A stretch of DNA of 64,000 nucleotides from the IMG/VR virus record IMGVR_UViG_3300026097_001210, positions 1 to 64,000 of that record; one strand, given 5' to 3'. The translations under genes were made by a program, and so were the position numbers. Origin of the DNA: a virus. Numbering within the stretch: position 1 is the first letter of the stretch; the number at the start of each line of letters is the position of its first letter. Shown piece by piece: positions 414 to 55,506 of the stretch. Below the pieces are notes generated by a model. The model searched no databases and was not told the origin of the DNA. It worked only from the letters and a program-made list of their open reading frames with translations.

Positions 414-442
414 TTGATCATCGTTTCTTCTTCTGATACAAT
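414..442 (+). promoter_or_regulatory. sigma70-like promoter for the sulfation/glycosylation block
   Basis: TTGATC, a 17-base spacer and TACAAT form a good -35/-10 pair, and TGA before TACAAT makes it also an extended -10. The predicted start falls at the AGGAGG ribosome site, giving a leader of only about a dozen bases. Confidence 0.7.
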
Positions 443-460
443 GTATTAGGAGGAGAGACG

Positions 461-1120
461 ATGAATCATTTTGATGTTCTTATTGCTACCCCTGGGCATA
501 GCCTGGAAGCTCACTATGTGAGAAGCCTTGTAGATACTTTAGCTGAGTGTGATTCTCGGGGGGTATCATACAAGTGGCTTAACTCTTATTCTTCTTTAGT
601 TCATAATGCTAGAGAAACAACTATTAGCGGTGGAGATGGGTTTACTCTTAATCCCCTCGATAAAGGTCCATTAGGAGATAGCGTTACATATAACAAAATC
701 TTTTGGATTGATTCTGACATTTCCTGGACACCAGAAGACTTTTTTAAGCTATATGATTCTGAGCATGAAGTTACTACTGGTGCATATTTACTTGCAGACA
801 ATGTTACTACTTCTGTTCATGCTTGGGGTACACCTGGCGGTATTCCTAAAGAAGAAATCTTAAAGATGAAAGAAGTAACCAAAATTCAAAGTATGGGCTT
901 TGGATTTGTTGCTATGAAAAACGGGGTATTTGAAAGACTAGACCGTCCTTGGTTTGGACATTATACTCAAAAGATGCAAACAGGTCCAGATACCTTTATT
1001 GACACATATCTAGGTGAAGATATATCATGGTGTATTAATGCTTATAAGCATGGTGTGGAAATTTATTTTGACCCCTCGGTTTTGGTGGGGCATATGAAGA
1101 AGGTGAAAATAGAATGGTAG
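461..1120 (+). CDS. glycosyltransferase, GT-A-like
   Basis: Likely a sugar-nucleotide-dependent glycosyltransferase. The protein begins with a Rossmann-like beta strand (DVLIATPGHS) and carries a DxD-type metal-binding motif, D84-S85-D86, in a hydrophobic strand, as in GT-A enzymes. A later GEDISWC segment resembles the conserved acidic region of family 2-like phage glycosyltransferases. Its 219 residues are compact but typical for phage enzymes. AGGAGG is ideally placed before the ATG. The 3' end overlaps the sulfotransferase by 7 bases, so the two are translationally coupled. The acceptor is unknown; phage structural proteins or a host surface glycan are both possible. Confidence 0.75.
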   Translation: MNHFDVLIATPGHSLEAHYVRSLVDTLAECDSRGVSYKWLNSYSSLVHNARETTISGGDGFTLNPLDKGPLGDSVTYNKIFWIDSDISWTPEDFFKLYDSEHEVTTGAYLLADNVTTSVHAWGTPGGIPKEEILKMKEVTKIQSMGFGFVAMKNGVFERLDRPWFGHYTQKMQTGPDTFIDTYLGEDISWCINAYKHGVEIYFDPSVLVGHMKKVKIEW

Positions 1121-1935
1121 ATAAACAATATTTTTTTATGGCAGGTTTGCCACGTTCAGGAAGCACATTGCTTGCTTCTCTCTTGAGTCAGAATCCAGAT
1201 ATGTATGTTTCTGCTCAATCTCCCCTGCCCAATATTCTGGGGGCAGCTTATAATCAATATCAAAGCAAAGAAAATCTAGACCACAGTAGATTTGATGATA
1301 TCTATAATGTAGTAGACAATATTATTCCTTTGTTCTATGAAAAGCACCCAGAAAAATACATCATTGATAAAAACTTTTCCTGGCTAGAGCCACACCCATA
1401 TGTGATTCTAGAGCACCATCTTAAGAACGATATTAAAGTTATTTGTCCAGTAAGAAATATTCTTGAAATTCTTGCATCATGGAATAGACTATGTGAAAAT
1501 GACAAGACTAATCAATATGACAATATTATTAGACAGCATGATAAGACTAATCGTAAGATGCCAGATCGTCGAGCAGACTTCTTTATGAATGTCCAAGACG
1601 AAGAGCAGAAGGGTATTCTTAATGGAATTGAAAACATGAAGCGTATTCTATACCCCCAATTCAAAGACCAGATTATGCTCGTTGAATATGATGACTTAAT
1701 TGATAATACCGCAGAAACAATTGACAGCATTTATAATTTCTTAGGTATTGAAAAGTATGAGCACGATTTTTCACATATTACTAATCCTCACGAATATAAC
1801 GATATTTGGGGGGTAAAGAATCATCACACAATTAAGTCAAAGATTAAAAAAGAAGAGTATGACTTTGAAAAACTATTCTCTTTTGACACTATTAAAAGGT
1901 ATTCTGGTCTAGAGTTTTGGAAGAATATTAAATGA
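1114..1935 (+). CDS. sulfotransferase (PAPS-dependent family)
   Basis: Predicted to move a sulfo group from PAPS to an acceptor. The N-terminus holds the 5'-phosphosulfate loop GLPRSGSTLL (residues 11-20), the hallmark of the sulfotransferase superfamily. A second motif, PVRNILEILASW (about 112-123), corresponds to the 3'-phosphate-binding Arg/Ser region. The length (273 aa) is normal for Sulfotransfer_3-type proteins. No signal peptide or membrane anchor is present, so it acts in the cytoplasm. It overlaps the glycosyltransferase before it and shares ATGA with the APS-kinase fusion after it, which strongly suggests a single sulfation pathway. The acceptor cannot be named from sequence. Confidence 0.85.
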   Translation: MVDKQYFFMAGLPRSGSTLLASLLSQNPDMYVSAQSPLPNILGAAYNQYQSKENLDHSRFDDIYNVVDNIIPLFYEKHPEKYIIDKNFSWLEPHPYVILEHHLKNDIKVICPVRNILEILASWNRLCENDKTNQYDNIIRQHDKTNRKMPDRRADFFMNVQDEEQKGILNGIENMKRILYPQFKDQIMLVEYDDLIDNTAETIDSIYNFLGIEKYEHDFSHITNPHEYNDIWGVKNHHTIKSKIKKEEYDFEKLFSFDTIKRYSGLEFWKNIK

Positions 1936-2687
1936 TTATTGTGATTTCTGGTTTGCCAGGGGCAGGCAAAACAACACTAGCTAAAGAAATAGTGCGTAGA
2001 ACAGATGCTATTCATCTAAATGCCGATGACGTTAGGGCAGACCTAAGTTCTGACCTGGGGTTTTCTATTGATGATCGTAAAGAACAGTCAAGAAGGTTAG
2101 GCGCTATGGCAAGGCTGCTTTCTAATCAAGGTCATCTTGTGATTGTTGATTTTGTAAATCCTATCGAAGAAACTCGTAATGCTTTTGGTAGCTATGATTA
2201 TTTTGTTTGGGTTGACAGAATTAAAGAGGGTAGGTTTGAAAACACCAACAATATTTGGCAAGAGCCAACTAATGTTGATATAAGAATAGAAGAAGGCTTA
2301 ACTGTTGAAGAAGAAACAAAGCTTGTTTTAGATACCTTCGAAATTTATGACTGGACAGAACCAACAACTTTAATGCTTGGTAGATACCAGCCTTGGCACG
2401 AGGGGCACCAGGCTTTAAAAAACGAGGGGCACAAAAGAACAGAACAAGTTTTGATTGGAGTTAGAAACACTCATGGTACTTCTGAAAAAGATCCACTACC
2501 TTATGAAAAAGTGGTGGAATACATACAGCAATCTAATGGCACAAATAACTCACTAATAATGAAACTACCCAACATTACTAATATTATTTATGGTAGGGAC
2601 GTGGGGTATAAAATTGAACACGTTGAGCTACCCCCTGAAATTCAAGAAATATCAGCAACAAATAAACGTAAAGAGATGGGAATATGA
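1932..2687 (+). CDS. APS kinase fused to a HxGH nucleotidyltransferase (possible mini PAPS synthase)
   Basis: Residues 1 to about 110 match adenylylsulfate kinase (CysC): P-loop GLPGAGKTT at 7-15, NADDVR at 30-35, a DLGFSIDDR segment, and VDFVNPIEETR. From about 145 a second domain has GRYQPWHEGH (150-159), the HxGH signature of adenylyl/cytidylyl transferases, then YGRD (220-223) and an ISATNKR segment near the end. ATP sulfurylase also has HxxH and GRD motifs, so the domain may make APS from ATP and sulfate, with the kinase domain making PAPS. That is inference; an NMN-adenylyltransferase-like role is the main alternative. ATGA overlaps on both sides tie it to the sulfotransferase and DUF2061 genes. 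Confidence 0.8.
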   Translation: MIIVISGLPGAGKTTLAKEIVRRTDAIHLNADDVRADLSSDLGFSIDDRKEQSRRLGAMARLLSNQGHLVIVDFVNPIEETRNAFGSYDYFVWVDRIKEGRFENTNNIWQEPTNVDIRIEEGLTVEEETKLVLDTFEIYDWTEPTTLMLGRYQPWHEGHQALKNEGHKRTEQVLIGVRNTHGTSEKDPLPYEKVVEYIQQSNGTNNSLIMKLPNITNIIYGRDVGYKIEHVELPPEIQEISATNKRKEMGI

Positions 2688-2893
2688 AAGCAACAAAAGC
2701 TCGTTCAATGGCTAAAGCACTTCTTTACCGTGGACTAGGAACTTTAAGCACTTTTGTCATTGCTTTGATTTTTACGGGGGAAGCAGTAACAGCAACCTGG
2801 ATTGCTTTGATTGAATTTGTTGTCAAAACACTTCTATATTATTTTTATGAACGTTTTTGGAACATGATTTCTTGGGGTAGACAAGAAACCTAA
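2684..2893 (+). CDS. DUF2061 small membrane protein
   Basis: A 69-residue protein with the DUF2061 pattern: RS..KALLYRGLGTLSTF, then TGEA, then E-x3-KTLLYYFYERFWN. Two hydrophobic segments (about 16-32 and 37-55) suggest a membrane hairpin. The function of DUF2061 is not established; from memory, such domains are found next to or fused with CysC-type APS kinases in other bacteria, which agrees with the ATGA overlap with the APS-kinase gene here. It may anchor the pathway at the membrane or take part in sulfate or nucleotide transport, but this is inference. Confidence 0.8.
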   Translation: MKATKARSMAKALLYRGLGTLSTFVIALIFTGEAVTATWIALIEFVVKTLLYYFYERFWNMISWGRQET

Positions 2894-45969: not shown

Positions 45970-47013
45970 ATGAAAAAATATACAAGTGAAGAGCACCTGT
46001 CTTTCGATGACATTTTGCTAGTTCCTCAACACTCCAGCATTTCAAGTCGTAAAGACGTGAGCACTAGGGTAAGCCTGGGCAGCGGAATGACGGGATTTAG
46101 TCTTAACGTTCCAGTAATTGCAGCACCTATGGATACCGTATGCGAATGGGAGATGGCTGTTGGTATTCGTAAAGCTGGCGGCATTGGAACCTTGCATCGC
46201 TACATGCCCATTGAAGAGCAGGCTCGGCACATTAAGATGGCTAAGGCTAACGGCGCTATTGTTGGTGGGTCTGTGGGGGCTATCGGACAGTTTGAACATG
46301 ATGCCGCTGAGCTTTTGGAGGCTGGAGCAACATTTATTTTGATTGATGTGGCTAACGGTCATAGTGACCACGCAATGCTTGCTACACAAAGGCTCAAAAA
46401 GAGCTTTGGCAGAGAGACCCACATTATGTCTGGAAATGTATCTACATGGGAGGGCTACGCCAAGTTAGCAGATGCTGGGGCAGATTCAATTAGGGTGGGC
46501 ATCGGAGGCGGATCGGCTTGCACTACTCGTGTTGTAACTGGTCACGGCGTCCCCACTCTGGCATCTATTATGGATATTAGAAACAATTTTAAATACGGAG
46601 AAGGACCAGACATCATTGCCGATGGTGGAATTCGCAACTCTGGGGATGCCGCTAAAGCTCTTGCTGCTGGCGCAAACGCCGTAATGCTTGGTCGCATGCT
46701 AGCTGGCACCAAGGAGTCCCCAGGGGAGATAGTGGAGGGGCGTAAAGTATTTCGTGGGATGGCATCGGCAGAAGCACAGCACGAAGGTAGGGGCTCTGTT
46801 TCTGGAGTAGAAGGAATTGCCACAACCGTACCATTTGTGGGACGGGTTTGTGACATCGTAGATGAGCTTGCCGCAGGCCTCAGAAGTGCAATGTCTTACA
46901 CGGGAGTGGACAACCTAGTTGATTTCTATCATCACAGCGTGTATAATAGAGTTTCAGGTAATTCGTTAAACGAAACAAGACCTCACGCTAAGGAGTTAAA
47001 TGCCTCGTCGTAA
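45970..47013 (+). CDS. IMP dehydrogenase/GMP reductase family enzyme without CBS domains
   Basis: TIM-barrel purine enzyme. LSFDDILLVP, a SGNVSTWEG segment and the loop GGGSACTTR with catalytic C184 match the family. VVTGHGVPT after the Cys is closer to bacterial IMPDH (TGVGVPQ) than to GMP reductase (TGVGYPQ). The regulatory CBS pair, normally inserted at about residue 90-210, is missing, giving 347 aa. The flap RGMASAEAQHEGRG differs from YRGMGSxxAM. It probably raises guanine nucleotide supply without feedback control. AAGGAG precedes the ATG. Confidence 0.85.
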   Translation: MKKYTSEEHLSFDDILLVPQHSSISSRKDVSTRVSLGSGMTGFSLNVPVIAAPMDTVCEWEMAVGIRKAGGIGTLHRYMPIEEQARHIKMAKANGAIVGGSVGAIGQFEHDAAELLEAGATFILIDVANGHSDHAMLATQRLKKSFGRETHIMSGNVSTWEGYAKLADAGADSIRVGIGGGSACTTRVVTGHGVPTLASIMDIRNNFKYGEGPDIIADGGIRNSGDAAKALAAGANAVMLGRMLAGTKESPGEIVEGRKVFRGMASAEAQHEGRGSVSGVEGIATTVPFVGRVCDIVDELAAGLRSAMSYTGVDNLVDFYHHSVYNRVSGNSLNETRPHAKELNASS

Positions 47014-54750: not shown

Positions 54751-54759
54751 TTAAATATT

Positions 54760-54830
54760 GGGGTGTGGCGAAATTGGCAGATCGTTCGATTGTTAATCGA
54801 TAGGTTGTAGAATCGTACCCTACCACCCCA
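54760..54830 (+). tRNA. tRNA-Asn (GTT)
   Basis: Acceptor GGGGTGT pairs with CCACCCC except for one mismatch, followed by discriminator A. The D-arm shows GCGAAATTGGCAG. The anticodon loop is TTGTTAA, giving GTT. The T-arm is GTAG with CTAC around ATCGTAC, which departs from the usual TTC at its start. No CCA is encoded. Confidence 0.75.
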
Positions 54831-54832
54831 GC

Positions 54833-55434: not shown

Positions 55435-55506
55435 GCCCCCTTAGCTCAAAGGCAGAGCGCCACTCTTGTAAAGTGGAGGTTGAGATCTCGGAATTCTCAG
55501 GGGGCT
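55435..55506 (+). tRNA. tRNA-Thr (TGT)
   Basis: Acceptor GCCCCCT/AGGGGGC, anticodon stem CCACT/AGTGG with loop CTTGTAA (TGT), and T-stem GAGAT/TTCTC with one T-T mismatch, like that of tRNA-Asp. It reads ACA. No CCA is encoded. Confidence 0.9.

Follow-up and report, generated by a model that had tools for sequence, protein, structure and literature searches.

A predicted sulfate-activation and sulfotransfer module in a tailed phage and its candidate minimal ATP sulfurylase domain

The role of phage sulfotransferases has been stated as unclear (PMC10580990), and a locus of four genes raises the question of whether a phage may prepare its own sulfuryl donor for such an enzyme. The locus lies at positions 461 to 2,893 of the window, by which we mean the whole stretch of 64,000 nucleotides that was analysed (bases 1-64000 of the 77-kb virus record IMGVR_UViG_3300026097_001210 of IMG/VR). 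The source is a freshwater-type phage, and a tailed one, since portal, head and tape-measure proteins are encoded downstream of the module. The original prediction assigned to the locus a glycosyltransferase (GT), a sulfotransferase (ST), a fusion of adenosine 5'-phosphosulfate (APS) kinase with a nucleotidyltransferase (NT), and a DUF2061 protein.

Judging by sequence, we consider it probable that these genes form a module for making 3'-phosphoadenosine 5'-phosphosulfate (PAPS) and transferring its sulfuryl group, with the NT domain as a putative ATP sulfurylase of a third, minimal kind. The broader proposal, that NT domains of about 110 residues represent a third and previously unrecognised kind of ATP sulfurylase, fused in phages and some marine bacteria and encoded by a separate gene in most SAR11, is favoured with somewhat less assurance. 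Neither the module nor the NT domain was found described in the open-access literature on phage PAPS synthesis, on DUF2061 or on SAR11 ATP sulfurylase with sulfotransferase.

The two domains of the fusion protein

The fusion protein (251 aa) matched phrog_10255 over its whole length (8.3e-58), a family annotated only as 'kinase', with the role of the NT part absent from the annotation. By sequence, its N-terminal domain (aa 1-137; 1932..2342, + strand) is APS-kinase-like. This domain carries the P-loop GLPGAGKTT, a D-D-V-R motif and DLGFSxxDR, and matched APS_kinase (PF01583) over aa 2-84 of the fusion with E-values of 4.8e-19 to 2.2e-18; residues G7-K13 of the P-loop, D32, R35, F44 and R49 were invariant in alignment A3. 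The top PDB hits of its fold in Foldseek were all APS kinases or PAPS synthases, the best being 4rfv (E-value 1.7e-10).

The NT domain (2340..2684, + strand) is minimal, about 110-112 aa in length, and is the proposed ATP sulfurylase, with GRYQPWHEGH, PNITNIIYGRDVGYKIE and ISATNKR as its landmarks. The first of these holds the HxGH motif, and a GRDVGY motif was also recognised; the match to CTP_transf_like was weak. In alignment A5 the G, R, Q, P, H, G and H of the GRxQPxHxGH ATP site were invariant. Where Sat/MET3 enzymes have the catalytic motifs HxxH, GRD and ISxTxxR, the domain shows HxGH, GRD and I(S/R)ATxxR, which the wider superfamily also has. A first model of the full-length fusion was poor in the NT part (pLDDT 41-76) and was superseded by an NT-only model, built from a deeper alignment of 42 diverse sequences, which reached a pLDDT of 91 and a pTM of 0.83.

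The original prediction had called the C-terminal domain ATP-sulfurylase-like and had named structure prediction against ATP sulfurylase and NMN adenylyltransferase as a check. The outcome lay on the NMN adenylyltransferase side: the nearest folds were the NMN adenylyltransferase MJ0541 (TM 0.71) and phosphopantetheine adenylyltransferase, ATP sulfurylase was not among the top 50 PDB fold hits of the NT model, the Pfam scan gave no PF01747 (Sat/MET3) match for the fusion, and the NT profile matched NadM-type NMN adenylyltransferases (1.9e-8) over their ATP-binding half only. These points weigh against the reading preferred here, together with others that are taken up below. As judged by sequence and by the fold of the model, the domain is a member of neither the Sat nor the CysDN family and groups with the NadM-type adenylyltransferases; if it makes APS, an unrelated enzyme would be doing the job of ATP sulfurylase.

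The NT domain might instead be an NMN adenylyltransferase or a similar enzyme of NAD salvage (NadR/NadM-like), the kinase phosphorylating a nucleoside and the ST being a mere neighbour. The GRYQPWHEGH signature, the profile match and the nearest fold all favour this explanation. However, the domain covered only positions 3-59 of the 167 of the NadM model TIGR01527, at 18.5 bits against a cut-off of 181.2, and it measures about 110 aa against 168-181 aa in the solved archaeal NMN adenylyltransferases, so that the NMN-binding part is missing. The loss of this part would suit a very small acceptor, for example sulfate. NAD salvage is judged improbable in view of the truncated match and of the gene fusions and SAR11 distribution given below.

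Gene fusions and neighbours in phages and bacteria

The architectures of gene fusions, read from sequence, are the strongest evidence for a PAPS pathway. Relatives of the fusion were found at 14 bacterial genome loci. In Rhizobium sp. BK376 (L044), Sulfotransfer_2, APSK-like and NT regions are joined in a single open reading frame (ORF) of 555 aa. In OCS116 bacterium L053, its relative L138 and Gammaproteobacterium L054, the NT domain stands N-terminal to a canonical APS kinase (PF01583, 3.4e-64 in L053 and 2.8e-65 in L138), which reverses the phage order. Independent fusions in opposite orders indicate that NT and kinase act in one pathway, and the partners to which NT is joined, a canonical APS kinase in some proteins and an ST in another, argue against NAD salvage. 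A comparable set occurs unfused in Rhodospirillales L056, where kinase, NT and Sulfotransfer_2 are consecutive genes.

Thirteen bacterial genomes carry relatives of the fusion or of the NT domain; all 13, that of L053 included, lack Sat, and in ten of them CysD was not found. CysD was likewise found in none of the 18 genomes of the order of L053, and the two NT-CysC genomes of that order have TPR-sulfotransferases and neither CysD nor PAPS reductase. These distributions bear on the possibility that APS comes from the host, with PAPS production left to the kinase alone and the NT domain serving a side or regulatory function. CysDN is present in the hosts Rhizobium G001 and G011, as host supply would have it; against this, the NT domain occurs in genomes where neither Sat nor CysD was found, and its catalytic motifs vary little or not at all among phages and bacteria. 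We hold this explanation to be the least probable of those considered.

Close matches of the fusion were found at 36 viral loci, and a looser scan returned more than 400 relatives, of which 80 were kept; the viral set comprised 117 loci in all, 97 of them non-redundant, and in most of the 97 the fusion is full-length. Five isolated phages carry relatives of 35-38% identity, and the Stenotrophomonas phages Suzuki and Bhz60 are cultured carriers of the fusion. The commonest partner of the fusion is DUF2061, present at 86 of the 94 sufficiently flanked non-redundant viral loci and mostly directly downstream. The second commonest is an ST whose family varies by phage (Sulfotransfer_2, _3 or _4); some partner STs are too divergent for Pfam, with PAPS loops still recognisable. 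A constant fusion with exchangeable ST families is the pattern expected of a PAPS source. Whole contigs scanned with Pfam as a control gave Sulfotransfer_3 in 11 of the 27 that carry the fusion and in 0 of 9 fusion-free terminase relatives (p 0.034). STs lay within 1 kb of the fusion in 34 of 48 cases, a biased figure, since most ST clusters had been picked from genes at most 3 kb away; the weight is therefore placed on the fusions, the whole-contig control and the DUF2061 linkages.

In the window, DUF2061 is a small membrane protein of 69 aa (2684..2893, + strand), confirmed as the fourth gene by a match to the full PF09834 profile (1.4e-18; 67.5 bits against a cut-off of 23.1). The order there is sulfotransferase, fusion, DUF2061. 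Mesorhizobium nod plasmids carry, in this order, nodBCIJ, a sulfotransferase gene, DUF2061, cysD and cysN, and in two NT-lacking SAR11 genomes a CysD-like gene, CysNC and DUF2061 follow one another. Compared in this way, the fusion occupies the place of sulfate activation (CysDN/CysC). DUF2061 accompanies sulfate activation generally, perhaps with a role in sulfate supply; on Bradyrhizobium and Halobellus plasmids it had no sulfate genes nearby, so the link is not universal. Beside DUF2061 in L003 and L004 (5934-6452) is a 173-aa protein that resembles a kinase paralogue by eye, has lost the P-loop (GMDAYARKE) and gave no Pfam match.

Several observations stand on the opposing side of the argument. 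In the Sanovirus and Salvovirus phages of Stenotrophomonas and Xanthomonas, the second gene upstream of the fusion is a Sulfotransfer_4 gene, and the one that separates them is of NADAR size (L039, L040, L041, L042; confirmed as NADAR by Pfam in L039, 4.1e-26), which hints at NAD chemistry and speaks for NAD salvage. A recognised ST was present within 3 kb in only 25 of 61 well-flanked loci, and phage DLP_6 has a relative of the fusion and no Sulfotransfer_3 match. The APS kinase motifs of the original prediction were recovered as regards P-loop and D32/R35, and the fold agreed, but the protein scored 64.6 bits with the APS-kinase equivalog TIGR00455, under the cut-off of 138.7, and the canonical lid RDxKGLYKKAxxGxIKxFTG (about 16 residues) is missing in the aligned phage and SAR11 short forms. 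The lid binds ATP in canonical APS kinases; the alignment retains it in L053, L138 and L267.

The lid deletion suggests altered specificity and so leads to another explanation, in which the kinase-NT pair makes a PAPS-like donor of another group, such as phosphoramidate, for transfer by an enzyme of sulfotransferase fold. An APS-kinase relative of Campylobacter, a cytidine diphosphoramidate kinase (cited in PMC10919079), is reported to use another nucleotide. On the other side are the linkage of the pair to several unrelated ST families and to the DUF2061 of sulfate-activation operons, and the occurrence of NT in one protein with a canonical APS kinase; the neighbours listed also included neither a glutamine kinase nor an amidotransferase. 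Such a donor seems about as unlikely as NAD salvage.

Distribution in SAR11

SAR11 (Pelagibacterales) is an abundant group of ocean bacteria. The NT domain was found in 193 of 247 Pelagibacterales genomes; in most of the 193 it is encoded on its own, with a length of about 125-135 aa, and a short APSK-like gene was near it in 21 of 30 loci inspected. Forty-seven of the genomes (29 with NT, 18 without) were tested for CysNC, counted as an ORF of more than 600 aa. CysNC was found in 0 of the 29 NT-bearing and 7 of the 18 NT-lacking genomes (Fisher p 5e-4, shared ancestry uncontrolled), and STs in both groups (21 of 29 and 14 of 18, respectively). Such a pattern resembles the replacement of one route by the other, subject to the same reservation on ancestry. 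That NT and CysNC never occurred together in the genomes tested is a further point against NAD salvage, which was rejected on this ground, on the truncated NadM match and on the fusions to APS kinase and ST.

Most SAR11 isolates have been reported with cysC, cysQ and aprA and without cysD, sat or the remaining pathway (PMC5069961). The same source gives AprBA of SAR11 as a possible alternative origin of APS, from sulfite, which accords with a supply by the host and tells against APS formation by the NT domain. Five SAR11 genomes (G044, G053, G060, G061 and G087) had an ST, with neither NT nor APS kinase found, and many of the genomes surveyed are incomplete metagenome-assembled genomes or single-cell assemblies; both facts add to the opposing side. 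Taken as a whole, the claim that the phage makes its own PAPS for sulfotransfer is well supported by the fusions, the neighbourhoods and the complementary gene distribution; two parts of the original prediction are corrected, in that the NT domain is not of an ATP-sulfurylase family and the kinase lid is missing.

Two further observations were made in Pelagibacter. A pyruvate-kinase-barrel gene directly precedes the kinase-NT fusion in several loci (L047, 7000-7971, PF00224 1.8e-44; L048, L049, L052 and others). A class-III aminotransferase (PF00202, 3.3e-28) forms one protein with the NT domain in L055 (7-1395); the ISATxxR motif is degraded in this NT copy, which is possibly decayed or recombined.

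Proposed pathway, remaining features and meaning

In the pathway proposed for the module, the NT domain would convert ATP and sulfate to APS and pyrophosphate, and the kinase domain, whose family is established, would form PAPS by phosphorylating APS at its 3'-OH. Joining the two would help to drive an unfavourable reaction, as it does in other PAPS synthases. Judging by its family, the sulfotransferase would then move the sulfuryl group of PAPS onto an acceptor. That acceptor is probably a glycan which the adjoining GT would assemble on the virion fibre or the host surface.

The ST (273 aa; 1114..1935, + strand) was upheld, with the PAPS loop AGLPRSGST and matches to Sulfotransfer_3 (PF13469, 1.8e-13), PF00685 (3.6e-13) and phrog_27463 (3.5e-64); the GLPRSGST residues are present as the 5' PAPS loop, and the family score was 51.7 bits against a cut-off of 27 (PF13469/PF00685). 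The cyanophage sulfotransferases of S-SKS1 and S-SRM01 are homologous to it at 30% identity. The GT is a putative one (219 aa; 461..1120, + strand): it matched phrog_1574 (2e-48), and its identification comes from a weak match to the glycosyltransferase family phrog_34859 (5.2e-7) and a conserved D-S-D motif. With no Pfam or PDB match, this call stands less firmly than those for the other genes. The GT accompanies only the window-type ST (63-84% identity; L001, L005, L007, L013, L016, L017, L021) and did not adjoin the 30%-identity STs in the loci compared.

A glycan of the virion is a plausible target of sulfation; next to the module, on the upstream side of the portal gene, are encoded a 1,200-aa protein and a fibre-like protein rich in glycine. 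The host surface is likewise plausible, and so is protein tyrosine, because the nearest solved structures of the window ST are the CurM ST and protein-tyrosine sulfotransferases. The neighbourhood in the fusion-bearing freshwater phages suggests that the module sits in a region of decorating enzymes. Luciferase-like monooxygenases (PF00296) were observed near the module in these phages (L025, L026, L035, L117, L130-L135 and others), and halogenase-like flavoproteins, 2-oxoglutarate oxygenases and carbamoyltransferases were assigned by eye, likewise near the module.

Three known systems are comparable. In rhizobial Nod-factor sulfation (NodP/NodQ and NodH-type), an ST, DUF2061 and sulfate-activation genes likewise stand together, there in one plasmid operon (Mesorhizobium), and serve to decorate a glycan, as is proposed for the phage; the rhizobial ATP sulfurylase is CysD with CysN, whereas its counterpart in the phage would be an unrelated NT domain within a single 251-aa protein. 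Animal PAPSS1/2 unite, as is proposed for the phage fusion, an N-terminal APS kinase domain and a C-terminal sulfate-activating domain in one chain; their C-terminal domain is a complete ATP sulfurylase of the Sat type and includes a PUA domain, whereas the phage has a NadM-like core of about 110 aa and no kinase lid. NadM-type NMN adenylyltransferases share the GRxQPxHxGH signature and the HUP fold core, but the phage NT domain is without the NMN-binding half and has other gene partners.

The four overlapping genes were confirmed as + strand ORFs at 461-1120, 1114-1935, 1932-2687 and 2684-2893, with successive overlaps of 7, 4 and 4 bases. A survey of gene order in relatives, named as a check in the original prediction, found that the linkage recurs: the order is kept in L001 and L005, and the same genes are reshuffled in L007, L013, L016, L017 and L021. 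The consensus promoter claimed ahead of the first gene is present as a sequence (TTGATC-17-TACAAT, 414-442), but shuffling the sequence yields matches of this type at about the same rate (18 observed against 12.5 +/- 3.2 expected), and it was dismissed as evidence for the module.

An RNA hairpin of 25 pairs (415..464, + strand; -32.4 kcal/mol, z -8.1, 0 of 200 shuffles) encloses the Shine-Dalgarno sequence and start codon of the first gene. It had no counterpart at the homologous start in L005, where a terminator-like hairpin and TATAAT stand instead. A second very strong hairpin (-30.0 kcal/mol) lies just 5' of the start of ORF 16429; folding of 59 start sites gave no further site of this kind. 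The Rfam scan of the window returned tRNAs only, adding two (54759-54831 and 55435-55506) to those of ARAGORN, for a cluster of five. An IMP dehydrogenase-like (GuaB-like) gene at 45970-47013 was recognised by eye, with ribonucleotide reductase and ThyX-like genes.

If the NT domain makes APS, a third way of activating sulfate would exist, in a very small domain of many phages and most sampled SAR11, and the step apparently missing from the carrier genomes, sulfate-activating or, in reverse, APS-consuming, would be supplied. The retention of CysQ, AprBA and a CysC-like kinase by SAR11, in which no ATP sulfurylase is known (PMC5069961), would then be accounted for, and phage sulfotransferases (PMC10580990) would gain a defined pathway. 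The most valuable part of the finding lies beyond the coordinates of the locus, in a minimal NT domain of phages and SAR11 that may be a third kind of ATP sulfurylase.

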